From NCBI GenBank assembly GCA_961205875.1, contig OY540816.1, positions 9,372,701-9,436,700 on the forward strand: 64,000 bases of DNA, given 5' to 3'. Source of the DNA: Sialis fuliginosa. Lineage: Eukaryota; Arthropoda; Insecta; Megaloptera; Sialidae. Below are positions 11,911 to 57,150 of the stretch, piece after piece (position 1 is the first letter of the stretch; every line of letters starts with the position of its first letter). A model generated the notes under the pieces. The model did not search any database. It was not told the DNA's origin and saw nothing but the letters and a program-made list of their open reading frames with translations. Made by a program: the position numbers and the translations under genes.

Positions 11911-12125
11911 TTAATTTTGTTTTGACACTTTAACTTTATTGGCATGTTTTTTACTTTGAATATGTTGTGTAAATGAAATTTCAGAATTAACTGAAACATT
12001 GCAAGTTCCACAATAGTAATTTCCACTGGGAGTTCGGTATACTGACAAATCTTGGCATGTTGTTCCATTTTTAGGATCTGTCACTGTTGACAATAAACTT
12101 GGTTCTTGCTGACCAATATTTTTAT
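11911..12125 (-). CDS. Exon 7 of the zinc-finger gene (finger 4 and stop)
   Basis: The acceptor is TTTTTCACAG. The exon encodes finger 4 (CGTCNVSV.., C344, C347, H360, H366) and a short basic tail, then TAA at 11911-11913. Confidence 0.9.
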
Positions 12126-15100
12126 CTGTGAAAAAGAATATGGAAATATAGTTTTATACATATAAAGTGTTGATACAAAAATTTGTATAGTGGAAATTGT
12201 TTATTTTGTACTAAATAATAATATTTTCTGCTTATCTCAATATTCTTCAAAAGTGGACATGTAACAAATAAATATTTAAATGACGATATGTTAATTAATT
12301 ATTAATGATGCATACCGTTACTTTCAATCCCAAGTCTACGCAAAGTCTTAATATGTTTTTGTCCAATAAGATGAGCTGTCATTTGATCAAACCTGGTAAC
12401 ACTGACGTTGCAATGTTCGCAATATAAATGTTGGTTTGGCTGGTTTGTGTCTACAACTTCTTCTGTGTTTATTGTTTCCATTCCAGGTACTGGAGGTTGG
12501 CTAGTACTATTTGAAACAAAGCTTGTGCCAATTCCAAATCTTCCTGTTGGATCAGCATTTACTGTTTTCCTACAATTTAATTATACTATCTTTTGAAACT
12601 ATTAACACATTAACTATCACACAATAAAAAATATTATCTTACTCATTTTGTTTTTCAAGTCAATCTTGATTGGTGCATCATAAAACTTTACTACAAATCT
12701 ACTTGTATATTACTAGTTGACTAATTCATTCACATACTATTTTAAATATTATTGACATAAACACATAGAAGGTATAATACCCACATCATAAGGTCCTTTA
12801 AAAATAGATGCTACTTATTTTATTTTGATCATCAGTGAGTACTTTTACATAACAAAACCTGTGCCGATTACTTTTTTTATAGTAATATTGAAGAAATACT
12901 GGATATTTCATTTTTCCTGACCATTTTTAAGTGCCGAGAATAGAATGTATAAAAATAATTAATGAGTTTTTTCACTATAACATATATCAAATGTATTTAA
13001 CCACTTTGTTTTTGATTGCCAATATCATAAATTTAAAATAATAATTCCTATTTTATATTCATATAAATATAAATTCATACAAATATAACGGTATATTTCT
13101 ATTGATTTCCCTTTGTCAGCAAAACTAAGAAAAAATTTAACCTCCCCCCTCACCCCTTAAACCTGCTTACATAATACTTGATCAATAAATTTAATATAAA
13201 TACTAACGTTCTGTGATAGTTTCCTTCCTCATCATAATATCCTGCACCCGAAGGACCTTTTTTATTCATAACAACTCTGAAATAAAATTGAATAATCATA
13301 TTATTTATTAATTGTAAATTAATTTTAAAGTAGTTTTAATTAACACATTGTTTGCGGATTCTGTATTAATACGTTTTTTTCTGATTGGTGCTGGTTTGCA
13401 TGTCTCGTATTACATAGTAATGCGGATTATTTAACGACAGATGATGTTTCCCTTTCTTATGTTACAATTTATAGATTTAAAGGATATTTTGAAGTTATTG
13501 TAATTTGTTTAGGCGTATAATTATTAATTATTTTTTGCCCACGCTGTGTGAGAGATTATTATCGCAAGGGCCTACAAACAATGTGTTAATATATATATTT
13601 TCTAAATATTACTGCGTATTTAACCCTTTAACTGCAACATACATTTTGAATAGTCATTCCACGTATGTCGCTTTTAAAAGGTTATTTGAATTTGTTAAAA
13701 TTACATGAGATTGCATACAGTTCCCCCATGTGAGTCATGCATATATATTTTAATGTTTTTTTATGAATAAATTTCTAATTATTAAATAAGTTTATGTATT
13801 TTATTTCCAATTTTTAACTTTATACCTTGACTAAATGTAAACAAAACACAAAGTATAAATAAAAAACTGCTCATAGGTCCTGTACAAGTCTTGTCTTATT
13901 ATTCAGTTTCTATATCAAAGACATTAAATATGTTTCTGCAGTTAAAGGATTAAAAGTAATCTTGTCATATATGCTGTATGAAGAAATTCTCTGCCGTATC
14001 AACTATTTCTAATGTGTCTGATTTTAACTTAAACTGTCACTGGACAGCTCGTGCACCACTACTGTTCCAAATCCATTGAAAAATGGACACATATTTATAT
14101 GAACATTATATAACTTTCTAAGGTCATCCTCTATTCTTCATCATCTGACTGTACACATGAATTATTATAATTTTGATAAAAGAATCTACTTAATTATGAT
14201 ACTTTTTATATGTATTACATAGTTTAATATTATTGCACGCCCCAAGCAGAATTTACTTGGTGGTGTGTTCTACTCTTTGTCTAAATTTTTTTTTGACATG
14301 TATGTTGATAAAATGAGCATTATTTCTTAATTTCATCAAGTCAGCCACCCACATAAGAGTTTAAATTTTTTGAATGAGCACATTACAGTCTCTGTATTTC
14401 CACAGTTTAATTTCGATTGGTTTTAATATTTTGTTATAAAAATATAAACAAAGTTTGTTAAGTTAAATTCAAATACTTTTTAGGCAGGTAAAACATGCTA
14501 CAGGTTGCAAAATGTAATAAATTAACCCTCTAACGCATTAATTTTTTTGAGATTCCATAGTTTCTGTGTATATTAATTTCACTATTTTTAACAAAATTCT
14601 CTTTGCACTCAACTTTGTGGCCGAACTACTGAAGCTACAGTAATGAAACTTACATCTTGTGTAGCCAAAATAATTCTCCTCAAGGTAGTGCAATTAGAGA
14701 AAAAAAAATTTGTATGGCTGAAAAACCCATTTTAGAGGGTTAACAACAATCCTTTTGAATTCACTTAAACTATTAACAAAATAGAACTCTAATTAATCTC
14801 AGCCAAATTGAATTACAAGAACTAAGAAAATGTTCAGTTTATTAAAAAAAAAAACATCGATTCCGGTAACTTCAGAATTCCAAATATAGTATTTCTTGTA
14901 TTATTGTTTAGTTTCTTACAAAGATAAGCCTTTTTTGCAATTTGCAATGATTAAAATGTTTATCTAGAGTTTTATTTCATTACATTACATCTATAAATAA
15001 ATAGATAAAATTTTGTATATTTGCATTTTTAAAACATAAAAATACAATAATGTATTTGTTAACCGATTCTAACCTGATTTAATGTTCACTTGCTCTATGT

Positions 15101-17753
15101 TAATTTGTACCTTATTAAGTTGTAAAAAGTTGATAATTCTATTAATATATTCAAAAAAATTAAAGGGGTGTGCATTTTATGGCCAAGCCATGTAATTTCT
15201 TACTTCTGATGACTTTTTCCCATATAATGACTTTCAGCATGTATTCGAGAAGTAAATGAAATATCACATAAATCACAGTGTTTATATTTTGGATCATTAT
15301 CGTTGTCTGAATATTCAATAAGATTTTGTTTCTTAGGTAGTGGTTGTCCTGTTTCTTTTGACCATTTTTCAAGCCATGCACGGACTTTCTTTTCATGATT
15401 TCTTGAAACATAATGTATCTTAGCCAAAGCTGTTGATGTCATTTTCATTGCACACAATTTACAGTCCAGTGCTTCAAATTGACTTGTTAGTTCCTTAGGA
15501 TAATTTACGGTTTTTATTTGTGGATATGTGTCTTTATCTGTAAAATATTTTTTTAATAAAAACATTAAAACAAAACTGTCTCTAAATGAATCGATCAGCC
15601 GAAAATATTATATATGAATGTAAATATTTACAGATTTTCACTGTGCAGCTGACAAAACGTAATATTAAATTTCTTATAAATTTAGTTCAAGCGTAACTTT
15701 TGTTTACGTATAATACTTGTATTTATTTACACTGATAACGAAAAACACATTTATGTATTGTCGGCCGGCTACTGCTCAAAAATAAAATACACATTAATGT
15801 GTTGGCAGCCAGTTAAGTTTTAATAATAGAAAAAATAAACTAATTTACTAAAAATATTTGTAATTATGTTAACACTATTATTGTTGTGCTAAATGTTCAT
15901 GCATGTATTTAAACAATGCATTCTGCCATAATAAATGTACTGTTAGAGTCCGCACACACTACAGACAGTTAATTGGCCGATAGTCAGCTGATAGTTTGAT
16001 TGGATTTGAGCTTTAAACCGATTTGCCCTAGATTATAGTTTAGTTGGTGGTGGGTGCACACACATAGCACGTCATACTGATTGTCAGTTGGCAGCTAGTT
16101 GTCCGACTTTTTAATCAAATGGGAATTATCTAGCTTTTTTGATTATTTAATCAATCGATTTTTAACTGGTAGGTGTGTGTAGTTAAATATATCTCCATGA
16201 GATGTCACAATTTTATATTAAAAGTATATATTGTATGTAATTTCATGTTCTTTGGGTTTCTATCTTGTGATGTCATCTGATAGCTACGGTGTATAGAGTG
16301 AAGTTGATGTGCGCAATGCCATATCTTTATTAATTGTATCATGCTATCAGCTGACTAAAAGTCTGTAATATGTGTGGGCTCTTAATAATACTACTCACAT
16401 GTCAATGTTGAATCGTCAGAGTTTGGTCGTTTTAAAGTATCATTGTTCTTTTGTTCGCAATCCTTGACTTTTTCAATTATAACATTATCTAAAAAAATAT
16501 TTTAAAGAAATTATTAGTTTGATAAAAATAAAAATACAATGAGTCTCTAAATAATAATATTTAATATTTTATGTGACAAGATTTCAAAGGTATGTAAGGT
16601 ATATGAATTTCAGGCTTAAAAAATACTGGATTACTTAATTATTATTATTAATAATAATTTATTGACAGTTTTAACATTTGCACGCTCGGTAATTAGACAT
16701 GTTTATACTCTCTCTGTAGTTAAACACTGATTAAACTAAAAATTATTCTTTATTTTCTCTGCACATTCAGTAATTAGATGGTAGGCTATTTTTAATTATA
16801 TCCAGTTTTATGCTTTTCATTCTATATTTAAAGATTTGTAACAATTGCTTATTAAAATAAACTTCATCATGCTCTACGGTTTATTCTTGTCAATAAAGAG
16901 CAGTTATAATTTTGGTAAAATTGAAGAATATGCGGTCATTATGTCACAAATTTCAAAAATCACGTGTTGATGTGTTAGAATAGAGTTATGTCCGGTATTA
17001 TAAAGGAGCTAGCAAAATTTGCTAGCTAGCAATTACTTTCAAATGGGGTATTAATTCTGTACTAGTATCTATGGATTAGTTATAGAATTTAGAGCAGTGT
17101 CACTTCAACTAATTGTAACACAGTTGGCATCTTTCACCGTACAAAATAATTTTCATATCACCACTGTTTTAATACCGTTGGTATTTACCTACAACGTGTG
17201 CGCGAAACTTGTCAAAGTCTTCAACAAACTCCAAAAGAACTGTTATATAAGTTTGATATTTGTATAATTGAAAGTGCTTGCTAGCTAGCAAATTTGCTAA
17301 GTCCTTTATAATACCGGACATTAACCTAACAGAAACTCACGAATCTAAACAATGACAGTTAACATGTATGTCGTTATGACGTCGTGCTCACATTTCTTCA
17401 GTTTAGCCATAATTTTTATAAATCTACATACATATTAGCTAATTAGGTATCTTGCTATATGCAAAAATGATTCTCATCATTGAAAATAATAAAATTTTAA
17501 TACCAATTTACCATTATCATATTTTGGCGTTTGCTCATAGTTTTCTTGGATTTCTAAAACATTCTTAACTTCCATCGTTTTATTTATGTTCTTTCCAGAA
17601 TTTGATTTTTTGGGTACTACAAAATCTTTAGGTAGTGAAGAGCACCCTTAAAAATTGTAAATTATTAGTAAGTTGTATGGAACCGGTTTTTTGGTTATGA
17701 AATGTACGTATTTTATTACCTATAAAGTAACCATTATCTGCAATATTTTCCAT
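11911..17753 (-). CDS. Four-finger matrin/U1-type C2H2 zinc-finger protein (ZNF346/ZNF385/ZMAT-like)
   Basis: A complete seven-exon gene was assembled from splice sites and phase. The coding exons are 17720-17753, 17512-17646, 16399-16488, 15204-15537, 13208-13276, 12316-12569 and 11911-12125, all with GT-AG borders and matching phases, giving 376 residues ending KVSKQN. Four fingers share the spacing C-x2-C-x12-H-x5-H, with first cysteines at residues 112, 174, 271 and 344. That x5 histidine spacing is the matrin/U1 type, which in known families binds structured or double-stranded RNA in the nucleus. The first about 85 residues are polar and low in complexity. Between fingers 2 and 3 lies a Gly/Tyr segment (GAGYYDEEGNYHRT). 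The ATG at 17753 is the first in-frame start and gives a 34-nt first coding exon. MITEs lie in introns 3, 2 and 5, and one lies 113 bp upstream of the ATG. Exact orthology is not established. Confidence 0.9.
12316..12569 (-). CDS. Exon 6 of the zinc-finger gene (finger 3)
   Basis: This exon encodes a Ser/Thr/Pro-rich spacer and then finger 3 (CEHCNVSV.., C271, C274, H287, H293). The acceptor is AATTGTAG|G and the donor is AACG|GTATG. Phase joins exon 5 (ending AC) to give Thr and exon 7 (starting AT) to give Asp. Confidence 0.9.
13624..13949. mobile_element. piggyBac-type MITE in intron 5 of the zinc-finger gene
   Basis: TTAA|CCCTTTAACTGCA at the left is mirrored by TGCAGTTAAAGGA|TTAA at the right. 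The TTAA target is the signature of piggyBac elements. It is 326 bp and non-coding. Confidence 0.8.
14526..14739. mobile_element. Second piggyBac-type MITE in the same intron
   Basis: TTAA|CCCTCTAACGCAT pairs with ..TTTTAGAGGG|TTAA. It is 214 bp and non-coding. It shares only the terminal CCC(T)..TAAC style with the 13624-13949 element, so it is a different family. Confidence 0.75.
15204..15537 (-). CDS. Exon 4 of the zinc-finger gene (fingers 1 and 2)
   Basis: This exon encodes residues 87-198. Finger 1 has C112, C115, H128 and H134. Finger 2 has C174, C177, H190 and H196. A basic amphipathic linker (KKVRAWLEKWSKETGQ) follows finger 1. The acceptor is ..TATTTTACAG and the donor is GAA|GTAAGA. 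If the donor were skipped, translation would stop two codons later, so a truncated two-finger product by intron retention is possible. Confidence 0.9.
15946..16381. mobile_element. Harbinger-type MITE in intron 3 of the zinc-finger gene
   Basis: The TIR GAGTCCGCACACACTACAGAC pairs with GTCTGTAATATGTGTGGGCTC in mirror, and TTA flanks both ends. The subterminal CAGCTGATAG is also inverted (CTATCAGCTG). It is 436 bp. Confidence 0.8.
16989..17320. mobile_element. Harbinger-type MITE, TGTCCGGTATTATAA family, copy 1
   Basis: The TIR begins TGTCCGGTATTATAAAGGAG and continues through GCTAGCTAGCA. The mirrored right end is ..CCTTTATAATACCGGACA, and TTA flanks both ends. It is 332 bp, in intron 2 of the zinc-finger gene. 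Sister copies are at 22237-22497 and 46237-46566. Confidence 0.85.
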
Positions 17754-20467: not shown

Positions 20468-20957
20468 CAAGGTATATAAAGACAAGGTAGTCTCAATAGC
20501 TCCTTGACCAATCAGCGTTGGCGGAGGAATTGACGTTACCCAGTTATAAATGTATAATAGAATGTCAATTACAAGAAATTCCTTTATTTATTCTTGTTTT
20601 CGTATTTTTTGATATTTTAATAACACAAACAATCAAAGAAGTACAAATTCGGCATTGCAAAATCATAAAAAAGCTGTCAGAATTACAGAACGTATTGCCA
20701 ATTTAAGAATAGTAAAAATGATGCTTTCCAAATAGACCAAAGTGTCTGTGATAGCTATTTTATGATTTTGCAATATCGAATTTGTAATTCTTTGATTGTA
20801 TGTGTTGTTAAAATACCAAAATAAGAATAAATAAAGGATTTTTTTGTAATTGATATTCTATTATACATTTATAACATTTGAATGTATCCCCTGGGTGACG
20901 TCAATTTCCACGCCATCGCTGATTGGTCAAGGAGCTATTGAGACTACCTTGTCTTTT
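20468..20957. mobile_element. Mutator-like foldback MITE, copy 2
   Basis: It has the same arms as 769-1519. A perfect 9-bp TSD GGTTTTGTT lies at 20459-20467 and 20958-20966. The right end is shortened (ends GTCTTTT without the final TATACCTTG). Confidence 0.8.
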
Positions 20958-21125
20958 GGTTTTGTTTAAAAAAATAGTAATAGAAACAAAATGAGTTTCT
21001 TGTAGTTTATAAAGTAAATTTATTTTTTATCCATGTACTTAAAAATCTAGAACTTATTTATATAATTAATTTATAAATAAATAGCGATGTAACTTTAGTA
21101 GAATTACTTATAAACAATGAATTGT

Positions 21126-21132: not shown

Positions 21133-21635
21133 CTATCCTTCACTTGAATTTAATTTGAATAGTTTAAGAAATTCTTCTCTGGTCATAATAATCTTTTGAT
21201 TTTCAATATAGTTTCTCACATCTTTTGTATTTAATTTACGTTCATGTCTTATTTTGTGAGCTTCTTTATTTTCATTGGAGTCATCCTGTCCTAGAACATT
21301 TCGAATTCGGGCATCATCATTTTGTAATAGTTCATCATCATTTTCTTGGTTGACATTAGTCTGTGATTGTTTGTTAAATATATTGTAGACATCTTCATGG
21401 TTAACTCTTACAAAACTAATATTTTTAAATTTGCATTTGTGTTTACTAATATCTAAAGATCTGTTGCGATATTCGTAAGGAATTTCTAACATACATAAAT
21501 CTAATGTGGGGTATAGTAGAATATTACTAGAACGTGGGGCGCCGTTTCTAAAACTTGAAGTTGAGTTTGTGATGTTTGTTGCTGCGGCGATGAGAGCTGC
21601 TTCGAAGACTGGTCGTGGAATTGTTCTGTTGTTTG
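21133..21635 (-). CDS. Last exon: C-terminal region without a ligand domain
   Basis: It encodes residues 402-568 and TAG. An Asn/Thr/Ser-rich glycosylated stretch leads to YPTLDLCMLEIPYEYRNRSL, HKCKFKNISFVRVNHEDVY, an acidic Asn-rich linker, then RHER followed by a 34-residue charged tail ending NSSEG. An internal donor-like GTAAGAG at 21411 could be a cryptic splice site, but no acceptor exon with ligand cysteines was found downstream. Confidence 0.8.
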
Positions 21636-24600
21636 CTGTAAGTTTAAAATAATGTTAGTAAAAATTATTAACAATAGTAATTACCTTTTGTGAATAGGAA
21701 AAAAAATTAAACAAAAATAAAAGTGATAACAACTTAATGGTGTATCAAAAAAATCGATATTTTTTCCTCGCTTCCGTTTCGAAATAAGATAGTTTATGAC
21801 CCAAAATAAATCCCCCCACAAGGATTATCTTGTAGTTCAATTTTAAGAGATGTCACAAGGGGGGACTTGTTTTCCATTTAAATAACATGGAAAAATTATT
21901 CTTTAGTACTAAAGTTGGTATTACTGATTCATGATAACTGATAAAAAATTTTAAGGACATCATTTTGTAAAGAATAAAATTATGTTTTAATAATGCTATA
22001 GTTATCGGCTTGGTCATTTCTTTTCTGACAGCTCAGTAGTAGGGTAATATATTGCTATTTATTTGATAATTGATTTATGTAAAAACATAAATATTTAAAT
22101 CGTTTATAAGTTTTAACCCATTGAATTTACATACACCTATAGCTTTTTGAACTATTTTTATATAGAATTAAATTTCTTACAAAATTACTATTACTTATTT
22201 TTATAGAAACAATAGTTTAACCGCGAGAGCATTTTATGTCCGGTATTATAAAGGAGTTAGCAAATTTGCTAGCTAGCAAGCACTCTCAAATGAGGTATCA
22301 AACTTATATGACAGTTCTCTTGGAGTTTTTAACAGATATTTGCAAGCGCAGTAAGTTGGTTTTTACTGTTTTTACTCAAGATTAGTAAATACACTTTAGT
22401 AAATATACTTTACATATCTTTAAAACTAAGTTTGATATCCCATTTGAAAGTGCTTGCTAGCTAGCAAATTTTGCTAGCTCCTTTATAATACCGGACATTA
22501 GACGTATAATTTAACAAATATGTAAATCACTTTGAAGGCCTGTAACTTTTGATACCTACGATGAATTGAGACACATAACTTTGTAGACACTTTTGTAGAG
22601 AATGGTATCTTCTAAAAAATGATGTCCTTAATTTTTTTTCAGTTATCATGAATCAGTAATACCAACTTTAGTACTAAAAATCATTTCCCCATGTTATTTA
22701 ATTCTAAATGGGAAACGGGATCCTCTTTGCGGCATCTCTTAAAATTGAACTACAGAGTAATTCTTCGGTGAGGATTTATTTTAGGTCAAAAACTAACGTA
22801 TTTCGTAACGAGAGCAAAATATTTTATTTGACACACCCTAATGTAATATATGAAAGCAGTAGTAATGTTAAATATTAAAATGAATGTAAAATTTAACACA
22901 CACACAACTTTTTAGTAAAATAACGTATACAAAAAGAGAAATATAAAATAAAAACAATAAATTAATAGTGTTATAAATATTTAGTTTTCACTCACATGCA
23001 AAATAACTAGCCTTATTTGTATCGTCCATAATGGGATTGCATTCCATATTCTTTATAAATCTGTCTGTCTGTAAGAAATTACCTTCTTGATCTTCAATAA
23101 CAATACCTAAAATGCCATCATGAAATTTAACAATAAATCATTTTATTTAAAAAGGGTAACTAATACTTCTTATTAAAAATGTTATCATACATATGTGACA
23201 TATGCACATTTGGCAGAATGCTCTTTTACTATAACGACTACAGTTTGTATAATATCATAATTATATTGTATTTATATAGGAACGCACAAACTTTTAAAAA
23301 TATTATGTATTTTGTGTGTTTAGTATAAAATTAAAACTTACCTAAGCCTAAATTTCTTCCACTTTTAATCCAACTCCTAACAGCAGGTCGGATGTTGAAT
23401 TCGATCCAATGTCCTAAATGAGTAGAATTTTCATACATCGGTATCATTTTGCTATCTGACAAACGTCGTTTCACTAAAAATAAAATTACATTAACCCATT
23501 AATTTCCGTGAACATTTTTTTTAAATCAATGAAATGTATAGATTTTCAAATTTTTGAAACAATGGGAACAAATGGGTTAAACCGGTCTCAATCGATTCGT
23601 TCAACTATCAGCTACAAACATCAATCATAATATAACCCCATCGTCGATTTAGTTTCTGAGATACTTCGAGAAAACGGGGAAAACGCGATTTTCACCTTTC
23701 TACCTCATATTAGGGTGAAGCCCCACACCTTACGCGGGTCTGTTATTTTTTTCATAATTTCCTATCAAAATGCTTCAATGACTGGACTATACTGTACCAG
23801 TAGTGTAGTAAAAAAAATTTCGGGGGGGGGGGGGGGGGGGTAAATATATGAGTAAAATTTTTTAAAAGTATTTTGAACTGATGTATCAAAACATACGCTT
23901 TTTTTAGAACACTGAATATTTCAAGGAGGGGAGGGTATTGTTTCCAAAACCCCTCTCCGTTACTTTGCCACTATACTGTACTAATTTTTAACATTATTTT
24001 ATTACAGACAACGCAAATCAGAATGCTTAAAGTTTGGCAAGAAATTTAAAAAAACAATTTTGTTTAATATATGAAATATATAATATAAATTTTTACTTTA
24101 AGAAAAAAAATTATTTATAATTTGTTATCAATAAGTACTAGAGGAAAATATTATAACTAACGCTACCAGTTTATTAGAAAACTTACGTCTGTTTTTCTTC
24201 AATGATCGCGTGTACCAATATATAGATATTCGTATTTGTTTGTCTTCAGAATCCAAAAAATTGGCGTTTCCACCTTCAGTTCCTTCTTGTGCATCATTCT
24301 GAAATAGGCACAGTCGTAACTTATTTCATATACACATAATATAATACATGTTGACGTTAATGTATCCAAGGGTAAAATAGATGATAAATTGATTTTTTAC
24401 ATATTTAATAAGTAAAAAGAAATTTTGATACTTACATGGAATAATTTAAACAGTCTCAGTGAGGCTTTAGCAATATTTAATGTATGCTCTGGAATATGTG
24501 CCGCGATGTTAATATGAAAATATAAATTTAAACTGAATCTGTCGTTCCAAATCTCGGAATCGGTATTGCGTGGGATCTCACCTAAAACCACATTTATTGA

Positions 24601-27600
24601 TTATATTAGTTTTTTATATTACTTTTTGTATACACTTATCCAAAAAATTAAAGGAACAAACAATTAAAACTTTTTTTGCCTTCGCTATTAGTTTGAAAAA
24701 GTACAAAAAAATGACTTTTTATAGTCTTTTAGTAAATCTATCGCTACTTTATAAATATTAATGGGAAGACTAATGTTGCCAGGTACTTTTACAGCTTAAT
24801 GTACCCCCAACAGTCCTGCAAATTTTGAAATTGATCCATCGAACCGTTTTTATAATAAAGTAGGAACTTTATTAAAGTTTTTAAAAATGTTCTTAAATTT
24901 ACTATTTAATCATTAGTTGCTGATATATTGATGATCGAAGACAAAAGAATCATTTTTAATTCAAAGTCAGATATCTCGGCAAAAAAAATTGAGAGGGGCC
25001 AAAAAAAAAACAAATTAAAGCTGAATAACCAAGTTAACTGACCAATGCATTGGTTTAACTGAAAACAAATTTCCCGAGCCCACGGATCCTTAAAAAAAAT
25101 AAAAAAAAAATATGGAAAATTTTTGTGTCACTATTTCTTATGATTGCGCGATAATCGTAACTCAAAAAAAATTATGCTAAAAAATCTCAAAATTAGAAAC
25201 TTGAAGCTTTAAACTGCTTTTTTTTTATTTCGATACGACCATTTTTCACAGAGATACAGCTTTTCAAAAAACATTTTAAAAAAATTGTAATTGTTTGTTT
25301 CTTTAATTTTTTGGATAACTATAGAAAAATTGATATAATGTTAAAATAATTTATTTTTAAATCATTTATATGAAGTATACAGATATTTTTTAGGGGAGGA
25401 GTAATTCTTGATAAAAAATATTTTCAAAAGATTATTTTAATTTTATTTTCAAGAGAGATATTGTGACCAAAATTTGCTTATTCTCCAAAAATTAATAGAA
25501 AATAATACAGCCACATTGGCTTCTGATTTATGTTTACTCACATTTTGGAAAAAAACTTTGAATTTTTTCTGTGAAAGGCAGGTTTGAAATGTCAGGCAAG
25601 TCTTCATTTTCGACTACAAGATCCGCATTTGTTGGAAAAGGCATAGTCAAGTTCTGAGGAAAGTACGACGAAATATTTGGTTTTAATGTCGCTATGATGT
25701 ACTGCTTAATGTCGTCTATACGCTGGGATTGTATTCTGAAATAATAAATTAAATAATAGTAGATACTTATATTCAAAATGTTAAAACATTTCTTTACTGT
25801 AGAACAGTCAAAAATTGATATTATCATTATTAATATAATATGGATTGTTCAACGTTAAATATTTGCAATTTGATAGAAATTATTCAAAATTAAAATTGTT
25901 TATTTTAGAAATTACGATGTTTACTCGTATATAGTGGCGTGATGTTATACATTTTTATAATAAAAAAAATAAAAAAATTTATTTGATTATGTTAATTTGA
26001 CATGCACTTGTGAACACTAGCAGTGACACTAGATTCAAATTTTGCAATTGGAATTAAATCTTTAAGAAAAAAAGTTAGTGTTAAGGCCTATATACACCAC
26101 CCAATCTGCCGCCCCACTCAACCTCCCGACAAATTAGCCCTGTAGATTGGATGGTGTATAGAGGCCTTTAGTTAGCGAAATTACAAACCAATTTTAACAT
26201 ATTTAGACCATTAATTAAAATTAATATTTAGACAATTAGTCTAAACAGCGCCGGATTTATCTTTTTGGTGCCTAGGTTTTTATAGTGAACGGTGCCCTAG
26301 TTTTTCTCTTTTTGTTGTTTGAATTATGTTTCAAACTTGACCAAATATAAATGCATGTGGTACATGGATATTATATATAAAATCTCTGCCTACGTAAATT
26401 TGTTCCTTTGCTTTGAACTTGAGGCGAAATTTTACGCTTACATAATATATTATTTATTTATTATTATTATTAGTAATAACATCCTAATTAATAGAAAATA
26501 TTGTTTTCACCTCGATTTGCAAATATTGCAATAAGTTTTTATTATAATTCTTATTTTTATATTCTTATTCTAAAATAAAGTGATCAGAAATGCTATATAT
26601 GTAAGTCATGTGCAAACATATAATTTTTTATCAAAAGTGTAATAACCGAAATAGTTCTCACTAGGAAAAAAAAGTAACAGAGGGAGCACCACAGTTTCTC
26701 TTATTATAAATCCATCACCGAGTCTAAATATTATCGAAAAGGTATTTTACATTTTTAAAACATTTGAAAAATACGTAGTTGCATTAAGTGCTGATAATTT
26801 TCGTGTATTTTCGAAATCATTATATATTTAATAATAAAACGTTAATATATTTAAATTCTTTAACTATACAGCTTTTATTTGATATCCCACTCGCCAAGAT
26901 TGAATTTTATTTTTGTTAACACATATGCCCCCCTTAAAAAGCGCCAACTTTATTTTTATTTTTATACGTCAGGTCTATTATTGGCTTATTGGTCCAGTAT
27001 TTACTATAACTATGTAGAATCTCAGTATTCTAGGTCAAATGGTTCAGTAGTTTTAAGGCAGACTAGACTGCATAGTGTTGATTTAATGTATTCCTTTTTT
27101 TTCAACTTGGATATGGAACACAATAATAAGAATATTTTTTCATGTGTTCCCTGAATATTCGCCGAGTTTTTTTTTTAGAAACTCTCCGTAATATGTCCAG
27201 CACCGGTTTTAGGGGGGAGCAAACCAAGGCGACCATCCGGGGCGCTAGGACAGGTAGGGCGGCGTACAATGGGGCACAAGTGACTTTTTTGGTTAAATTT
27301 CAATATACAGGCAATCATTTTTGAGTAAACTTTTTTGGAGTCTGTAGGATCGCGCCAAGCTGAGATATTAACTATTCAACTTATTTGTTAATTTATCAAT
27401 TGTAATTTGTTAATAATAGGGGAAGAAGGTCTCGACGGACTTAGGGCATTTGATAGTCTTAAAAGTTAATGATGTAAGCTATATTAAAAAAAAAGTTGTA
27501 GTCTGTAGGATTGCGCCAAGCTGAGATAGTAACTATTCAAATTATTTGTTAATTTATCAATTTTAATTGACATTTTTGGTTATTTTTGAACATTTTTTTA

Positions 27601-30600
27601 GGAGGAGAGAGGGCGGAAAAATAAATCTCACCCAGGGCGTATTGTATAGTTTTCTATTGATATTTCACTGTAAGCAATCTAATTTTTAAAGTAGATATTT
27701 TCGGTCATTTGCAACTCATCCACTAATTTATGTAATAACACATAATTACGGAAACCAAAAATCATGCCAATTTTGTTATTAATTTTAAGTTGTCCATTAG
27801 TATGTCCTTTTATAAATATTCTCAATTAAATCACTGGCGATGGACATTTTATAATAATGTATTTATTACCTCATAAATTTTGAATAATTATAATTCCAAA
27901 CTAATAAAATATTTGGTTTTATCTTTATATATAGAAAAGTGAATTGTAATATAAAATGAATCAGGTTAAGATGGAACCACTTCTTAAGCCGACCCTGTTT
28001 ATACTGTTATAGAAAAACTGAGTACATTTTTTAGGGTGAGCATTCTAATAACAGACTAATTAATCAAGGCATATGAATGCGTGATAAAATATTTTCCAGA
28101 AATAGTGTGACTGGACTATTTTCTAAGAAATCGTTCGACGGTTCAATGTTGTTTTGCGACGCAGGGGGTTAATAAATCTCATGAATTCTTTAGAAAAATA
28201 TGCTTAAACATTCCTACATGTTGGATATTAATTAATTTCAAATTCAAGTTTGTATAATTTTTTAATACTTTCGCGGTAAAAATGTAAAGAATTTAAAAAC
28301 ATAGATGAGTAAGAAATAATTAATTTTTATACAATTGAATACTAATTTTGTTGTCATCTTATATAATACAATAAAATTAAATAGAAAGCTATTAAATATT
28401 AGATATATGTTAGATAAATAAACAAGGTGTGGTATTTGAGAGAAAATACGTATAATAAAAACAAAAAATTGATAGTTTTATGTGTGCAGTGGAGCATAGG
28501 TAAAAGTAAGAAATTAATCAAAAATTAATACTGAATAAAAGAAAAAAGCTAATAGAAAATGACAAATAAAAAATGTTTTAAAACTCGTAGGTTTTACCAG
28601 ATTAAACATGGTTTAGATTTAAAATGTATCTAATGGTTATAGACACAAAATTAATAAATAGAATAATTTTTTTCCCCAAGATTGTTAGGGATCCCATACA
28701 TATATAATCAATAATGATTTGAATCTAAATGATATTAAAAAAAATAGGTATTTTGAATTACTATCATCTTCCATTATTGATCTTTTCAGTTGATGGTAAA
28801 TTATTGATATTAATGATTCTATACCAGCGATCAGATTTTCTGAAGGCAATTGTTAACATTGTCTGTAAGTCTGCACTAGTAAAATGTCACATAATCAAAC
28901 TCAACATTGTTTACAAGAAATATAAGGAAATGGGATCAATAATTTTGTTCTTATTTCAATTAGTAGTTTAGTATTTCAATAAAACGTTTAAAGATACCCC
29001 AAAAGTTTTAAAAGACATAAAAAATACTACAGAATCTTCAAAATCAGTACTGTACTAAAATATCTGCCATGAGAGCCACATGACTTTCTTATACGTAATA
29101 CTGAGAGTGAACAATGCACATGATTTTAATTTTATTAAAAAATCTGACAAACTAATAAAAAATAGAATAAAATAAATGGGACATAAATTAAAGGGAATGA
29201 TATTTTCTACAATATGTATCAAATGATCTTTTTAAAGTTTTTACTATTAACTGCAAACGGATGTTTAATCTTGTTAATTTTTAAATTTTCGAATTATTTT
29301 GAAATGGTACGAATAAGAAAGAAATGTTTTAGATGAATATTGTCGAGTATATTATTATCTATAATTTATGTTCAATTCATTTATTTCCATCATTTATTAT
29401 TTAGCCAGAAAGATTTTTTTAAATAATTAGAAACTCCCACACTGTTCACTCTGAGTATTACGTATAAGAAAGTCTCATGACAATCCATGGCAGATATTTC
29501 TTTTCTTTTATGAACAATTTGAAATGTAATTAAATGTATTTTTAAACGAATAGAACATAAATTATAGATACTAATATTATCTACAATTTTTAACTTGACT
29601 ATTTTTCTCTAATTTGCACTGTTTCAAAAATAATTCGAAAAATTCCAAAATTGACATCACTAAATATCCTAATCCGGCTGAAAATTATTCTTAAATATAA
29701 AATTTTACCCTTCTATGATTTGTCGTATTTGAGTTACAGCGTCTACAGACAGACAGACACACAGACGAAAATAGCCATAATGTATTAAGGGAAGGTCAAA
29801 ATGGATAATTCCATCAAAATCCGGATTTCGAAAAAATTTTATGTAAAAAAATCATTAAACAGAAAATACTATACGTATTTAATAAATAAATTATAAAATA
29901 AATTATAGTTGGTATAGCTAATAATAATAATAATAATATTTGTCAATTTGTCATCATCATTCACGAGACAAAAATCTAGACAGTAAAGAATGCTGTTTAT
30001 TTTTTTTCTCGTTGCGAAAATACACGCGTAAAAATAATGACGAATGTGCAGGTTTTACAGGAATCAACAGGTGTGTTAGAGTCACGCGTCATTTAAATAG
30101 AGACAGGTATATCGGTATTAAATTACAGTCTCTTATAACAAAACAAATATAGTAACTACTACAGACGGGTCAGGCACAGTGCTCTGGAAGCCAACTTTAA
30201 TAAAAAATTGATTACCTCTGATTTTTTGTACAATTCAATTCTTTAGTATTTAAGAAACATTTTAAGATCAAAAAGAAAAAAATCGCCTTGGCGCTTTTTT
30301 AATAATTCATAAAACAAAAAAATACATAAATTGTGTGCAGGTCATAACGCGATATTTTTGAATTATATATTACTTATTAACTTTTTAGTCTACAAAATAA
30401 ACAACAAAAATAAAAAATTATTGGAATTCGAATTGCGGACCCATTGTTTATAAGATCTTTTATAATTTTTTGTAAATTTTGAAATATATAAAACAAACGG
30501 TATTTTATATCGAAAAATCACAAGAAACACAATAATTTGCTTTTATTAAGGGGATTCAAAAACATATTTGATATTATCGGTACGATAATTAATACCAATT

Positions 30601-33600
30601 TTGAACGGCCGCCATTTTGAAATTCATAAAGGAATTCCGCTAACTAGCGATCTTAATTGATGTATTTACTAGATCGATTTTTCTACTAAGTTTCAAAAAG
30701 ATCGGAAGAATACCTGAAAGACTAGAGACTCCACAAGAAAAAAGTTTTATAATAAAATTGAAAATAATTCATAACTCGGGTACTAATTGTCGGATCGATA
30801 TTATCAAATATATTTTAGAATTCTCTCAATAAAACCAAATTATTGTATCTCTTATGATTTTTCGATATAAAGTGTCGTTTGGTTGATATTTTAAAATTTA
30901 CAAATTTTTTTAACGAATCTTGTAAACTAAGGGTCCCGAGTTCGAATCCCAATATTTTTTTATTTTTATTTTTTTGTTTATATTGTGGAACTGTAGAGTA
31001 AAAAGTTAATAAACAATAAATGCTAAATAAAATTCGCGTTATAATTCTGCATACGGTTTATTTATTTCTTATTTTATGAATTATTAAAAAAGCGTCAAGG
31101 CGATTTTTTTCTTTTTGGTCTTAAAATGTTCCTTAATTACTAAAGAATTGAACTGTACAAAAAATCAGAGGTAATCAATTTTTTTTATTAAAGTTGGTTT
31201 CCAGAGCACCGTGCAGGGTGACCTAACGACATCTAAAAAATGCGCTTAATTTTTTTTCTATCACAGTTGGTATCAAAATTATGTGTTTTTATTGTTAGAA
31301 GCACAGTTAATAAATATCTATTAAACTTGAAATTTTTCGTAATTATTTTAGACTGGATACTTTTTTTTACCTATGTCTCATAAAATCATTATTTCTACGA
31401 TTTTTTAATTTAATTAATACATACATTTTTAAAAACATGATTAGTGTTATTAAAGTCAAGATCTGAGAAATAAAAAAAACTTAAACAAAAACATAGCTTA
31501 ATCATATTCATAATTTAAGTCTGTCTCTTCATAACAGTTCAATCCGTTATGAGGTAAAAAATAAAAACAGGAAAGAGACGAGTAACACTTATAGCTTCCA
31601 TATTGCCCCATTGTTTTTTTCTGTCTCTTCTAGTATTTGTCTTTCACAAACATTCTTCATGCGTGTTATTTAACTTGATAAATTCACTGCATTTACAGTT
31701 ATTTTCAAGAATCTCTTATCACTAATATCACAACTATTTATATATTTGAATTTTTTTACGTGTTACTTAGAAAAAGTTAAAGTGATTTAGTAATTTGAAG
31801 AATACCATATTTTTATTATTTGCACTACACAAAAAACAACGCAATGAAGTTTATTCAAATATGAAGAAATGTAAAATCAAATTTAAAAAATCCATGTAAT
31901 TTTGTTTTTTGACGATACACTAGGCTCTCGCTATTCCGGTACTTTCTAGTACGGCGTATTTCTACCGCGATGGTCTACGTGCAGCTTCACATTCGTTAAT
32001 CCGACCTTGCTAGTTCGGCCATTCTACAGTCCTGCATACCCCATACAATAAAATATAAAAATTAAAAAAAATTACTGGCCATGTCAATGATGACTGCCGG
32101 ATTATTGACAGAGAGTATCCGACCCAGGCCCGGATTTGCCATGCAGGTAGAGTAGGCAGTTGCCTAGGGCGGCAATAATTGAAGGGCGGCAAATTTTGGC
32201 GGAAACTTTGAAAACTTGTTATATTCGTGGAAATTGAATTTCCCGCCTATTTCGTTGGCACGCGTACCAACATTATAAGTGGAAAATGCCCGAATCGAGA
32301 AAATAATCGATTTATACAAGTCTCGATATTGGCCTAATATCGAATATTCGATAAGTTTCTCTATCGAAAATCATCTTATTTTCTTTTTTTTTTCTTACCA
32401 AACTTATTTCACCATTAAAGAAGTTTCGAGGGGTGGGGGATGGGGGTGGGGGGCAATTTTCGCAACTGCCTAAGGGCGGCAAATTTCTAAATCCGGGTCT
32501 GATCCGACCCACTCTATAATTCGCCCATTTTTGTACAAGTAATAACCGGATTAGCGAGAATCTAGTGTATAACACATGCTTATCAATTTCTCATGAAAAA
32601 ATATTAGCTGAAATAAAATCAGAACTGAACTTTAGTTTTTAAAATTTTCATATAATTAGAGGTAAATGTTATAATAGATATTCAATTTGATAAATATGAT
32701 AGACGAACATAACGGACAACGGCGACAAACCCTGTGACTGACTATTATTACGAGCCACAGACGTTTAAACTTACATATGAAATAAAACATAATTGAAATG
32801 TTAAATAAATACGTACACATACTAAAATAAACGTTATATGTGTACATACATACACATGTTTGTACTTGTCTAGTCTGTACAGTTTGGAATTACTATGTAT
32901 CAATCTATATACAGTATACCTTCGTTAACATATTTATTTTACGTCAAAATTAACTAAATACTTGTTTTCAAAATAGTATATACAGTTTATTATAATTGGC
33001 TGTTGTTTTATTAATTAAAGCTAAAAAAATCACACAAAAAACTTCGTGCAGTGTTAGCAGTATATAACTTAACAAAACACTTTTTAATTTACTTTTTATT
33101 TACCTTTCTGCAAGTAGAGAGGAATTCCTAAAAACGGTCCAAGAGAAAGAAAAATACTTTAGTATATTTTAAAATATTATCTATATATGTAGTGTAAGTA
33201 TATATGTAAATGAATATTATATATTATTGAGATAACGAAATCGTTCTCAAATTTAAATCTTTATTAATAGCCTGATGATGATTCTGTGAATCGAAAGCTT
33301 GCGATTACCTTTTCTTGAATAAATTTTGACGTTTAGACAAACAAGTTTGTTTTTATATGTAATAAACAATAGGATCATTTATAATTATTTAAACCTGACT
33401 AAAAGTCATAAATCATAAAGTATAAATATAGACGTAAGTAGTAGGTATAAGTTTTTTATGTTTAATACATAAATTATTAATTAAATATTAACGATTAACT
33501 ACTTGCTTTCTGTTGTACGAGTAAATATGTATATTAATAAAATGGAAACAATTATTAATTAAAAAAATAAGGAGAAAATATAATTTTAAAATAAAAAAAC

Positions 33601-36600
33601 GTATGTAAATGTAATTAATTAAAATTTTTCATAGAACAAACCAGAAATGCATTATCGTATGTGTAAAAAGGACAATTGCCTGTGTTCCCCGCCAAAAGGG
33701 AAGACCCAAATCATTTTTTTTCAAACTCATACTAATTAAATGAATTTTTTTGTCAAGTATTATACATTTAATTGCTTATAATAATTCAAATTTTGATATT
33801 TATTAATCTAAAATTGTTTTTAGTTTTTCAAGAGGATAAAAAAAATCCTTCGAATTCAACACTACATGGGGCTACCTAATTCAAATCTATCTGGGGGCCC
33901 ATGAAGCTATAACACGTCTAACAAAAATAATAGATGGTATAAGTGTCTATATACATCGTGTATATAACACTTTTTAATGAAAATTGTATTAGATAGTTTT
34001 AGAAGTACTCTTTTTTATACAGTAATAAAAGATAGATAAAATTGATTATGATTCATTTTTATTAATAATAAATTTAATTTCACTGACTGCCTGTCTATTT
34101 AGACAAAATATCAGGTGTTAGGTCGATACACAAAAGAAATTAACAAAAGATTATTTAAAAAAAAACGAATGATAAGCTAATAGTACAATATAATATAATA
34201 ATTTTATAATATCATCAATTGAAAAGTTTCAACTTCTACAAAGGCATTGATATTTTTGACGATGCAATTTATATAACTTAAAAAAAGTAAGAATAGAAAA
34301 TTGAAATTAATACAACAAATACCTAATGATGTTAGAATAAAACATATTCATATATTTCTCACAAGCTAGTTAAAACTCCACAATTTTGGGTTATGATAAC
34401 ATTAATTCGATTTTTTCCATATTTTACAATAAAATATTGTTATCACCACTCCCCTAAATACGCGAACTGCTGCAAATAATTTTCATACATTGGCCTTTTT
34501 AAAATAATGAGATAGAAAACTTCAATTTTGGGAAAATTTTAATTAATGTATTTTGTTATTGAACACATTTAGAGATAAGTTTTGAAAAAAGTAAGTGTTT
34601 GTAAAAATGATCACTTTCTCAAGAATAATGTTAAAAGCTACACATTATTTATTTCTGTATCATTACATTCATAAACATTGTTATTATTTTTAGCTTTTTA
34701 CTTTAGCTTGTAACGTCGTTGCATTGTAGAAATCCGACAGAATAAAACATTCTGAAAACATTTTCCTGTGCGAGTTCTATATTTACATTAATACACAAAG
34801 TTCTTATAAAATTGACCTGAAAAATTTGCGGGCTGCACGCGACTCCATGTAAATTTGGTGCAGCATTTCATCTATTTATAAACAATGTGCCATTTATTTA
34901 TTATTTATATAATATTTTAACGAATAAAAATTAATAATAACAGAGATGAAGAATTCTACAAAAGAAAAATGATTTTAATTTAATGAATCGTAACGTTAAG
35001 TTATATATTTTCTCAATTTGATAGAATGACAAAAACTCTAAATCTTCGAAAATACAAATACCTTTTTTTAAGTTTTGGTACTTTATATAATTGCTTATTT
35101 TCACGAAGAAAAAATATGCAGGTCCTATAGTTTTTTTAGTCGTAAACGAAACTCAGTTTGAGTCATATTTACTGTTTTTATCACTAGATCTGTGGTATTT
35201 GAATGCCTAAATCACTTTAAACACTAGCTTTTAAACTTAACCAATTTAAAATTGATAATTCTCAATTTGATATTGATTAGTCTCAAACTGAAAATTATTA
35301 TTCCCAATTTGAAATTGATTAGTCTCAATTTGAAATTGATTATTCCCAATATGAAATTGATTATTCTCAATTTGAAATTGATTATTCCCAATTTGAAATT
35401 GATTAGTCTCAATTTGAAATTGATTATTCCCAATATGAAATTGATTATTCTCAATTTGAAATTGATTAGTCTCAATTTGAAATTGATTATTCCCAATATG
35501 AAATTGATTATTCTCAATTTGAAATTGATTATTCCCAATTTAAAATTGATTAGTCTCAATTTGAAATTGATTATTCTCAATTTGAAATTGATTATTCCCA
35601 ATTTGTAATTGATTAGTCTCAAATTGAAGTTGAAAAGGTATAGATTAAATAAATTGGATGAAATTTTTTATATTAAAATGTATTATCTTAATTTCAATAT
35701 TTTTAAGTGATTAAATTTGCTTGTTTCTATTTTAACTTGGTAATTTACATTAAACGTAACGTAAATAAATAAATACATAATATATCTACAACCTTGAATA
35801 TCTCAAACTAAAACGATATGATCATCAAATCCAATTCGATCAAATGTCTTGTTTTGAATTTCTGTCAACTCGACTTTAAATAAACTACGATACAATATTT
35901 GCGGAACGCTAAATCTAAAGAATTCGCGTGAGAATTAAATAACGCGTACTTCTATGAAATTGATTTTTTTTAAATGTTGAAACGGAAATGAACAAAATAT
36001 TAGATATTATTCAAGCTGATGATGATTTATGTTTTCTGCAGGGTTCTGGGTAATAAGTACCATTCCTGATACAAACCTGGTTATCGTGCAAACGTTCATT
36101 ATAAATGTAACCAATATATGGTTTATATAAATCAGGTATCAATATAATACGTGTAATTAATACATAGCAGAAAATTGAATCTATGAGGAGCGGTTTTTAC
36201 AATTTTTGTTAAATTCTATTGACAATGAGAATTGCGAAGGTATATCAAATGTCTAAATAAATTGGTAGTTTTTTTTATATTTATTTTCACACCAAAAGAA
36301 TATCTATCGTATCGAAGATCAATATTTAGTTTATTTTATTTAAAAATATTATTTAATTTGGTACTCAATCATATTTTTTTTAAATATAATATTAAGTACA
36401 AGCAAACGAAAAAGGTAATAGATAAAATGGGTATATACAATATTAGGTGAAGGAAAATAAGTTTTTTTAAGAAACATGTACACAATTAATATATCATTAA
36501 TTTTTACAATAAAGTATCTTAGCTTTTATTTCAAATATTTTCATAAGTTTTTGTATTTTTAACACGATTTTATGAATTCGTAAATTAGAGATATTACGAA

Positions 36601-37128
36601 TGAAAACTGAAACTATTATATAGAACTAAATCAAAATACTTACTTAAGATGGTAATTAACATTTGAATTCCTGTTATTTTTGATAGTATATTTAATGGGT
36701 GTTGAATTGACTCTGCTCAGAAATATTTTACCATTTGTATCATTTAGAATATTTACATTTGGTATTGAATAACCATCGATTATTTTTTGGCTATTCTGGA
36801 GAGATACACCATCGACACTTCCATAATTTTCTTTTACAGTATCTCCATTTGATGGAGAATCGCCCATCATTCGATCGTTTAAATTCTGTTGGTCTTTTAC
36901 CATTCTCTCATTGTTTAAATCTTCAAAATAATAATCATCATCATAATTAGTTAGTTGTGAATTTTCTTGATGTACACTCGAAGAAAGTGTTGAAGATTCA
37001 TGTTTTCCATTTAATTCATCTAATATATTAGTATGAACTGTATTCTGCACTACAGGTATTGGTTCCACTAATTTTAATATAACCGTTACTGTTAGTAACA
37101 AAGTACATTTAAAATTGAATGAACACAT
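21133..37128 (-). CDS. Secreted TGF-beta propeptide-like protein lacking a cystine-knot ligand domain
   Basis: Eight coding exons join with matching phases into 568 residues: 36644-37128, 33104-33127, 25542-25735, 24436-24581, 24187-24298, 23342-23473, 22996-23106 and 21133-21635. All borders are GT-AG, mostly GTAAGT or GTGAGT donors. The N-terminus is a signal peptide (hydrophobic core residues 9-20). Residues 25-160 are acidic and Asn/Ser-rich. Residues 163-385 match the TGF-beta propeptide pattern: a helix (RIDDIKQYIIATL, 175-187), HIPEHTLNIAKASLRLFKL (263-281), ISIYWYT (307-313), then GHWIEFNIRPAVRSWI (341-356) and NLGLGIVIED. Many N-glycosylation sequons fit secretion. The C-terminal 166 residues carry only two cysteines and no cystine-knot pattern, so no mature growth factor is encoded. 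A furin-like RLKR (320-323) and a minimal RHER (531-534) are present. The family match comes from motif recognition. Whether it is a decoy, chaperone or degenerate ligand is unknown. Confidence 0.85.
22237..22497. mobile_element. Harbinger-type MITE, TGTCCGGTATTATAA family, copy 2
   Basis: TIRs as in 16989-17320, with TTA on both sides. It is 261 bp, internally deleted relative to the other two, and lies in the last intron of the propeptide-like gene. Confidence 0.85.
23342..23473 (-). CDS. Exon 6: propeptide signature exon
   Basis: It encodes residues 321-365, with the diagnostic GHWIEFNIRPAVRSWIKSG and NLGLG that end the propeptide arm domain in TGF-beta family precursors. It begins within the furin-like RLKRR cluster. 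The acceptor is TTATTTTTAG and the donor is TTAG|GTAAGT. Confidence 0.85.
23495..23576. mobile_element. 82-bp piggyBac-type micro-MITE
   Basis: TTAA|CCCATTAATTTCCGT is mirrored by GGGAACAAATGGG|TTAA. The intervening DNA is only about 50 bp. It lies 21 bp upstream of exon 6's acceptor side in the intron. Confidence 0.65.
23798..23973. mobile_element. hAT-type MITE related to 7089-7266
   Basis: The left end is CAGTAGTGTAGTAA and the degenerate right end is ..TTACTTTGCCACTA. The 8-bp TSD TACTGTAC lies at 23790-23797 and 23974-23981. It carries an 18-G run near 23822-23840. Confidence 0.75.
24582..25541. other. Intron 3 of the propeptide-like gene
   Basis: A/T-rich intron. No transposon with both ends was recognised. 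Confidence 0.5.
26084..26167. mobile_element. 84-bp Harbinger-type micro-MITE
   Basis: AGGCCTATATACACCACCCA is mirrored by GGTGTATAGAGGCCT, with TTA at both flanks (26081-26083, 26168-26170). A lone left end of the same family is near 18958. Confidence 0.75.
27330..27570. repeat. 161-bp tandem unit, unoccupied by the MITE
   Basis: GTCTGTAGGATCGCGCCAAG recurs after 161 bp (27341 and 27502). This is the reverse complement of the units at 7547-8060. At 27459-27461 a single TTA stands where the other locus has the Harbinger-like MITE between duplicated TAA, so this is the pre-integration site. Confidence 0.8.
29057..29500. mobile_element. Inverted-repeat element with ATATCTGCCATGA termini, copy 2
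   Basis: The left AATATCTGCCATGAGAGCC and right ..CCATGGCAGATATTTC are mirrored, with ACTTTCTTATACGTAAT / ATTACGTATAAGAAAGT further in. Unlike copies 1 and 3 it has only a single right terminal block. The flanking DNA at 29535-29780 matches that at 2814-3060, so the element travelled with, or inserted into, a larger repeat. Confidence 0.65.
30168..31222. mobile_element. 1.05-kb foldback (whole-length imperfect palindrome)
   Basis: The left arm CACAGTGCTCTGGAAGCC is mirrored by GGTTTCCAGAGCACCGTG. Inversion continues inward through ATCAGAGGTAATC, CGCCTTGGCGC, the TTTTCGATATAAA blocks and GATATTATCGGTACGATAAT, to a centre near 30697. No open frame is present. The unit can fold on itself over its full length. 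Confidence 0.75.
31918..32567. mobile_element. pogo/Tigger-type MITE interrupted by a hAT-type MITE
   Basis: CACTAGGCTCTCGCTATTCCGG is mirrored by CCGGATTAGCGAGAATCTAGTG, with TA on both sides. The 377-bp insertion at 32125-32501 splits it, leaving about 273 bp of original element. Confidence 0.85.
32125..32501. mobile_element. hAT-type MITE nested in the pogo-type MITE
   Basis: CAGGCCCGGATTTGCC is mirrored by ..AAATCCGGGTCTG. The 8-bp TSD ATCCGACC lies at 32117-32124 and 32502-32509. The interior contains GGGCGGCAA repeated near both ends and a G-rich GGGGTGGGGGATGGGGGTGG tract. Confidence 0.85.
33104..33127 (-). CDS. 24-nt microexon of the TGF-beta propeptide-like gene
   Basis: It lies between ..CCGTTTTTAG and |GTAAATAAA on the minus strand. 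It adds eight residues (NSSLLAER, including an N-glycosylation sequon) and preserves phase 2 on both sides, joining ..NYHLK to IQSQRIDD.. . The join completes the amphipathic first helix of the propeptide, which is the main argument for it. It stands alone between introns of 3.5 and 7.4 kb. Confidence 0.7.
33128..36643. other. Intron 1 (coding side) of the propeptide-like gene
   Basis: A/T-rich with the minisatellite at 35241-35631. A CCTGATGATGATTCTGTGAA-type motif near 33271 resembles a dispersed transposon tail. No other exon was found. Confidence 0.5.
35241..35631. repeat. 21-bp minisatellite, about 18 units
   Basis: The unit CAATTTGAAATTGATTATTCC alternates with a GATTAGTCT variant in a higher-order pattern. 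Because 21 is divisible by three, both strands give long apparent open frames (INFKLGI.. and LKLIIPN..). These are artefacts of periodicity and not proteins. Each unit contains the near-palindrome CAATTTGAAATTG. Confidence 0.9.
36644..37128 (-). CDS. Exon 1 (coding) of the TGF-beta propeptide-like gene
   Basis: It encodes residues 1-161 and two bases of codon 162. It starts MCSFNFKC followed by LLLTVTVILKLV (signal peptide), then an acidic, Asn/Ser/Gln-rich stretch containing DDDYYFED. The donor AA|GTAAGT lies just before an apparent stop two codons further on. An in-frame ATG with AACAAA-rich upstream sequence and a strong acceptor at 37262 support this as the first coding exon. Confidence 0.85.
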
Positions 37129-46236: not shown

Positions 46237-46566
46237 TGTCCGGTATTATAAAGGAACTAACAAATTTACAAGCTTGCAAGCACTTTCAAATGGGGTATTA
46301 ATTCTGTGTTAGAATCTATGGATTAAAATGAAATTTAGAGCAGTGATACTTCAACATATTATAATAAAGTTGGCGACTCTAACTGTACAAAATAATTTTC
46401 ATAATATCACCACTATTTTAATACCGTTGATGTTTATTTACCACGCGTGTGCGAAACTTATCGAACACTTCATGAATCTTCAAAGCAACAGTCAGATAGA
46501 TTTGATATCCTATTTGAATGTACTTGCAAGCTTGCAAATTTTGTTAACTCGTTATAATACCGGACA
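46237..46566. mobile_element. Harbinger-type MITE, TGTCCGGTATTATAA family, copy 3
   Basis: TTA flanks both ends and the length is 330 bp. The inner palindrome is AAGCTTGCAAG here, in place of the GCTAGCTAGC of copies 1 and 2. Confidence 0.85.
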
Positions 46567-47627
46567 TTAGTGTAATATGTTTTATACCTGAAAATACTAT
46601 GCCTTTATTTTAAATCAATGCATATAAAATCTTCAAGAGTTTTTAATATAAATACTTTATAAGAAATGTTCAGATGATCGAAACTGATAATTCAACCTCT
46701 AAAATCGTGGATGATTTATATAATATGCCAGACTAAATATTTTGCAATACATACTAACAAAAACTTTGAGGTGGGTTAAAAATTACAGAAACAGTTTTTT
46801 TATACTGGTATGGTGCAAGTATTTCTTTATTAAAATTAATTATATCATTTCTTACGTACAAGTATGCAATATTATTATTTTTTAATTAAACTCACTAACT
46901 CCTTTATAATAATATCTATTTAAAACGTCTAAATCAGCGATTGGCAACCCGGTTTTTGCAGGTACTCATGTGCCCCCGAAACTGTTTTCAATTGCCCGTC
47001 ATTAACCTGGCGAAATACATTTTATTTATATACTGTACAAATGTTTTTAAGTTCTTACAGTAAGTACTAATTTAAAGTATATAAGATCGAACAAAATGTA
47101 TATTTTTCAGAAATATAAGGTAGTGGTATTAGACTTGGCAAGGACCCCAGTAATAGCTAATTTTTAATTAAATGTACTGTATATTAATCTACGAGTATAT
47201 ACATTTAACTGTCTTACAACGTGATTTGATGACGATCGGCCAATAAGTGTCAAAATGGTGGACATTTAAACTAATTATTAGTATAATTTATTTATTAATC
47301 ATTATATTACGAGTATCATAACTACATTCTTTCTTTGACGATTCTTTCTTTAATCATTAACAAGTGTCCATCACTGCGTGCTCTTACTGGTTTTACCTTT
47401 GCCATTACTGGAGAAAAAACATGAACAAAATAAAAGGCTATAATTTAAAAAACAAACTATATTTGGTGACTTTGGTAATTAAATTGATTAAATAAAGAGT
47501 TACATGTTTTATTAGTAGCATGAGTTCATGAGGATTATAAAAAACAAGCCCATTAATAAAAAAAAAACACGAAAACTTGCTCTTATTGCGTCCATAACTG
47601 GTGCTTTTACCTTATAATACCATAGAA

Positions 47628-57075: not shown

Positions 57076-57150
57076 AAAATCTTGAAATTCAATAATCTTT
57101 CATTAGTGATAGTGACATAAAACAAAGTATACAATTATGATGTAACTTAC

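Follow-up and report, generated by a model that had tools for sequence, protein, structure and literature searches.

The window, by which is meant the whole 64-kb stretch of DNA analysed (C8:9372701-9436700), has on its minus strand, from 37128 to 21133, a gene of seven in-phase exons, all with GT-AG borders, that together give 560 codons and a TAG stop. The exon borders were set by canonical splice sites on stop-to-stop frames together with the sequence. The parts of the gene, in the order of its transcription, are:

36644 to 37128, minus strand: exon 1, with the start codon and the donor GTAAGT, residues 1-161; a long acidic region, with no known domain
33104 to 33127, minus strand: candidate microexon of 24 nt, unproven, which would add NSSLLAER and give a 568-residue form
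25542 to 25735, minus strand: exon 2, RIDDIKQYIIATL, which aligns with the alpha-1 helix region of human TGFB1 and lies outside the Pfam match
24436 to 24581, minus strand: exon 3, propeptide arm (LNLYFHINI...ASLRLFKL), in the Pfam match
24187 to 24298, minus strand: exon 4, propeptide arm (QIRISIYWYTR), in the Pfam match
23342 to 23473, minus strand: exon 5, propeptide arm (GHWIEFNIRPAVRSWIKSGRNLGL), with a basic run, RLKRR, at the exon 4/5 join
22996 to 23106, minus strand: exon 6 (GIVIEDQEGN...MEC), inside which the Pfam match stops, at residue 363
21133 to 21635, minus strand: exon 7, terminal, 167 residues with two cysteines and no ligand similarity; stop TAG at 21133-21135
21019 to 21024, minus strand: AATAAA, a poly(A)-signal-like hexamer about 110 nt past the stop

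Eight exons and 568 residues had been counted in a first-pass annotation of this DNA. That length is reached with the extra 24-nt exon at 33127-33104, but the model now established has seven exons and 560 residues. Is so small an exon to be believed? As the search of intron 1 for exons of 6-57 nt gave two candidates over the thresholds, and the complementary strand, searched as a control over that stretch, also gave one, this one is indistinguishable from chance and an extra exon is unproven; with laxer thresholds, and exons of 30-500 nt, there were four candidates, all of them weak. The same intron has a minisatellite, 35242-35633, with 18.7 copies of a 21-nt unit. The N-terminus encoded by exon 1 is hydrophobic and signal-peptide-like, its most hydrophobic 19-residue window beginning at residue 9, and the Pfam search of the spliced protein gave no match in the exon 1 region. 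The only cysteines of the 560-residue protein are at positions 2, 8, 227, 379, 441 and 461. Its residues 523-526, RHER, are a minimal furin-type site followed by 34 residues to the stop, and a second RXXR-type motif, RLKR(R), is at 312-316. Another AATAAA-like hexamer begins just 2 nt past the stop TAG.

As to the surroundings, the downstream neighbour at 15200-15607 (minus strand) has a zf-met zinc finger according to Pfam, and further zinc-finger-like frames, alike by eye, are at 11914-12153 and 12305-12580 (minus strand). On the far side, a frame with the helix-turn-helix domain DUF4817 (52536-52988, minus strand) is presumably transposon-like. One repeat is present as inverted copies about 47 kb apart, 9427-10071 and 56503-57081, pieces of which are 89-94% complementary.

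That the gene encodes a clear TGF-beta propeptide had been claimed at first pass, and the profile bears this out: the spliced protein matches Pfam TGFb_propeptide (PF00688) with 30.1 bits against a cut-off of 25.8 (E 5e-07), residues 237-363 falling on profile positions 104-212 of 242. In an exon-by-exon search of the genome with the same profile (E up to 0.001) the window gene was not reported. However, dpp and gbb were the only loci that this search did report, and it has little sensitivity for split genes, since eight of the ten ligand genes of the genome, to be described below, went equally unreported. Local alignment with human propeptides, each compared with 300 shuffles, gave z scores of 6.5 for BMP2, 6.1 for TGFB1 and 4.3 for MSTN, and no similarity to the INHBA propeptide (z 0.5). 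A search of PDB sequences listed TGF-beta2 proprotein at E 0.77 with the helix region to the end as query, and at 0.06 with the arm region. The top rows of both, ahead of TGF-beta2, were nitrate reductase (E 0.17 with the longer query, 0.033 with the arm region), and these were taken as chance; an NCBIfam search of the protein gave DNRLRE alone, under its cut-off.

And the ligand? No cystine knot is detectable in the final exon, as had been claimed: the profile has no match there, only two cysteines are present, and against each of five reference ligand domains the z scores, from -1.2 to 0.7, are not above those of shuffles. Nor is a ligand encoded elsewhere in the window. A cystine-knot profile built from five ligand domains, with which a held-out Dpp domain was found at 1e-45 and its halves at 1e-20 and 2.5e-15, gave as its best match among 2918 six-frame open reading frames of at least 15 residues in the 64 kb only E 1.3; a motif scan of the window left eight frames with a single ligand-like motif, by eye chance. 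The earlier statement that no ligand is encoded downstream can thus be extended from the window to the whole of its contig, C8 (23.9 Mb), on which PF00019 has no match at E up to 1. The search concerned covered 392 Mb in 20 contigs and scores no candidate that fails a coarse preliminary screen (all 15 of 15 were scored here), with the consequence that a very short exon could escape it. As to its sensitivity, a 25-residue part of a ligand exon in another place of the genome was reported at E 0.48, and where ligands are split over two exons both were reported for five of six genes, the short first ligand exon of gbb being the one missed. Exon 7 has donor-like sites at 21411 and 21219. A splice that leaves exon 7 at 21411 or a similar donor and enters a ligand exon, the route by which it had been thought the absence might be undone, is unsupported, as C8 is without PF00019 and the sequence past 21411 is coding-like: with a codon score trained on the other exons, it is matched by a fraction of 0.0002 of intron windows. 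Of what defines a ligand of the TGF-beta superfamily, the propeptide domain was found and the C-terminal seven-cysteine cystine-knot domain was looked for and is absent; for that reason the window protein does not qualify as such a ligand. By its propeptide it is related to TGF-beta family precursors, and it may work like a free propeptide.

Where then are the ligands of this insect? With PF00019, at E up to 1, the genome gave 15 exon matches that group into ten ligand genes, three on contig C1, two each on C12 and C14, one each on C3, C6 and C13, and none on C8. By eye we take them to be dpp, gbb, a second BMP-like gene, a BMP10-like and a BMP3/ADMP-like gene, two of activin type, myoglianin and two maverick-like genes. 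All ten have an upstream coding region of their own, with a PF00688 match in nine, six above and three below the cut-off. Two of the ten prodomains match directly. The other eight were tested as open frames or roughly joined exons, and seven of them match, four with scores above the cut-off and three below it (E 0.032, 0.00054 and 0.0011). The activin-type gene at C12:8.60M has no PF00688 match; about 240 residues precede its ligand in the same frame. As every ligand gene has its own upstream region, none of the ten was found to be an orphan that could be the displaced partner of the window gene, which argues against an assembly error at the joins and against a partner lost to another place. 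On C12 the activin-type ligand (8604490) and myoglianin (8658008), so named by eye, are about 53 kb apart. The two maverick-like genes are on separate chromosomes (C14:9.03 Mb and C13:9.39 Mb), their prodomains are clearly paralogous (z 33-34), and the CCVP of the first is RCVP in the second.

The prodomains of nine of these ten genes, that at C12:8.60M being left out, were compared with that of the window protein. The z scores were 6.4 for dpp and for the second BMP-like gene, 6.1 for myoglianin and 5.5 and 4.3 for the two maverick-like genes, with low values for activin (2.0), gbb (1.1), the BMP3-like gene (1.1) and the BMP10-like gene (0.1). Roughly equal distance to the prodomains of dpp, the BMP-like gene, myoglianin and the maverick-like genes fits an old separate lineage, though a younger copy that evolves fast could also yield equal distances; such comparable distances suggest that the open frame has lasted through long divergence. 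Compared with the genome at E up to 10, the 560-residue protein had seven matches from eight scored candidates, all its own exons. No close paralogue was found in that search, which also did not list dpp and so excludes close paralogues only; the missing close paralogue rules against a recent copy of another gene. The earlier suggestion of a neofunctionalised paralogue consequently survives in part: a strongly diverged lineage fits the prodomain distances, but no close parent gene was found. Among IMG/VR contigs there were 20 pattern matches, none of them a relative.

Does any particular lineage stand out? A CxxC pair in strand beta-8 is described for the Maverick and Dawdle prodomains (PMC7017013). 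The window protein has no CxxC of that type (NLGLGIVIEDQEGN, without cysteine), and the two maverick-like genes of the genome carry CSEC and CPDC. The prodomain alignment and a reading by eye differ as to where in exon 7 strand beta-10 falls. According to another report (PMC2826372) the pea aphid has lost BMP10, Maverick and Alp23, and has four dpp genes. An idea involving the aphid lineage was disfavoured, the present genome having, by names given by eye, a BMP10-like and two maverick-like ligands, with one dpp seen.

Toward the 3′ end of the gene the coding evidence is uneven. A stop-free run of 160 codons has a chance of about 1e-6 at this composition, and the frames of exons 1 and 7, each at about 1e-6, are far longer than expected by chance. 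Within exon 7, the codon score of residues 468-526 is reached by none of 4000 intron windows and that of residues 393-467, which is weaker, by 3% of them. For the last 34 codons 28% of intron windows score as well, and 20% of 468 left-out coding windows score as low. A former intron after residue 532, from the donor-like site at 21219, was considered as a candidate origin of the last residues. The structure predicted for exon 7 alone has a mean pLDDT of 38, too low to interpret. On both sides of the exon are foldback elements:

20478 to 20956, unstranded: foldback (MITE-like) element, inverted repeats I2-I4, just past the 3′ end of the gene
21770 to 22815, unstranded: foldback element in the last intron, inverted repeats I1, I7, I8 and I11, with another nested inside it at 22236-22498

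Related foldback elements with TGTCCGGTATTATAAAGGAG-like ends are at 16988-17324, 22236-22498 (the nested one) and 46475-46567.

Foldback elements flanking the last exon would be compatible as well with damage at the 3′ end. Is this then a gene in decay, which lost its ligand exon in a recent deletion, perhaps along with transposons beside the last exon, and whose remaining frame is not yet degraded? The flanking elements and the absence of a clear coding signal from the last 34 codons would fit such a history. However, all seven exons are intact, without stop or frameshift and with every splice border canonical, no relic of a ligand was found in the 64-kb window, and no intact close sister copy was found in the genome. 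Decay is the alternative that survives best, and even so it is unlikely. A good deal less probable is a peptide precursor, in which cleavage at RHER would set free not a cystine-knot ligand but a novel peptide made of the 34 C-terminal residues. An RXXR at residues 523-526, 34 residues ahead of the stop, is placed as that would require, but RHER is only the minimal furin motif, the 34 codons are those without a clear coding signal, and no paralogue in which their conservation might be seen was found. It is very improbable that the last exon is a ligand domain diverged past recognition, for though its 167 codons would about suffice for a ligand and the end of a prodomain, and CKFKNISF by eye resembles the first strand of a ligand, two cysteines, z scores no higher than 0.7 and the lack of any profile match all stand against it. 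Least probable of all is a ligand exon that exists and was missed, whether because it is very short, because it is distant on the chromosome or because its contig was joined wrongly, since the donor-like sites in exon 7 and the limits of the genome search, by which the short first ligand exon of gbb was missed, have to be set against a C8 without PF00019 in a search that reported a 25-residue piece elsewhere, ten ligand genes already provided with upstream coding regions (nine with a propeptide match), and a window that has not a single N.

The reading we prefer, with about even confidence, is that of a diverged TGF-beta/BMP-type gene that has lost its ligand domain and kept the propeptide, its product being a secreted binder and probable antagonist of other ligands. 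That the gene has long been maintained for a ligand-less TGF-beta/BMP propeptide and is dedicated to it, in effect as a genomically fixed free latency peptide that regulates other ligands, is put forward more tentatively, at somewhat less than an even chance. Propeptides hold ligands of the TGF-beta family latent. With its hydrophobic N-terminus the protein would be secreted; the Pfam similarity predicts the fold of the propeptide arm domain, and pairing might occur via a cysteine in or near the arm, C379. Most likely it would be an extracellular binding partner for at least one of the ten complete ligands of the same genome, and, if like an ordinary propeptide it wraps the mature dimer or competes for it, could delay, store or antagonize that ligand. 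A propeptide-only gene would show that evolution can detach the regulatory half of a precursor, and would offer a simple system for what a propeptide does without a ligand of its own. In the open-licence PubMed Central literature, searched by words rather than by sequence and viewed as listings and a few passages, no report of a propeptide-only TGF-beta/BMP gene was found.

How does this compare with what is known? With the precursors of dpp, gbb, myoglianin and maverick the window protein shares a hydrophobic N-terminus, a helix region before the arm, similarity in the arm domain and a basic cleavage-type site near the C-terminus; unlike them, the gene, and the chromosome that carries it, have no detected seven-cysteine ligand domain. 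The reading as a secreted binder or antagonist, favoured over that of a decaying gene, has two precedents. One comes from sheep muscle, where splicing of myostatin yields the variant MSV; this propeptide carries a new C-terminus, binds myostatin and blocks Smad2/3 signalling (PMC3846833). In MSV too a new C-terminus on the propeptide stands in place of the ligand. However, the gene from which MSV is spliced also makes the ligand, whereas the window gene is itself ligand-less, and the effect of MSV was tested by its authors, whereas that of the window protein is a prediction. The other precedent is crammer and BCPI, stand-alone protease propeptides that are inhibitors in insects (PMC4089206 and PMC3551606). 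In these, as in CTLA-2 (all MEROPS I29), a propeptide has become a gene of its own that inhibits relatives of its former partner; protein and target are unrelated to those considered here, and the likeness is one of analogy only. If the reading as a secreted binder is true, the gene for a free latency peptide would, with respect to its ligands, be comparable to crammer in its role toward cathepsins.
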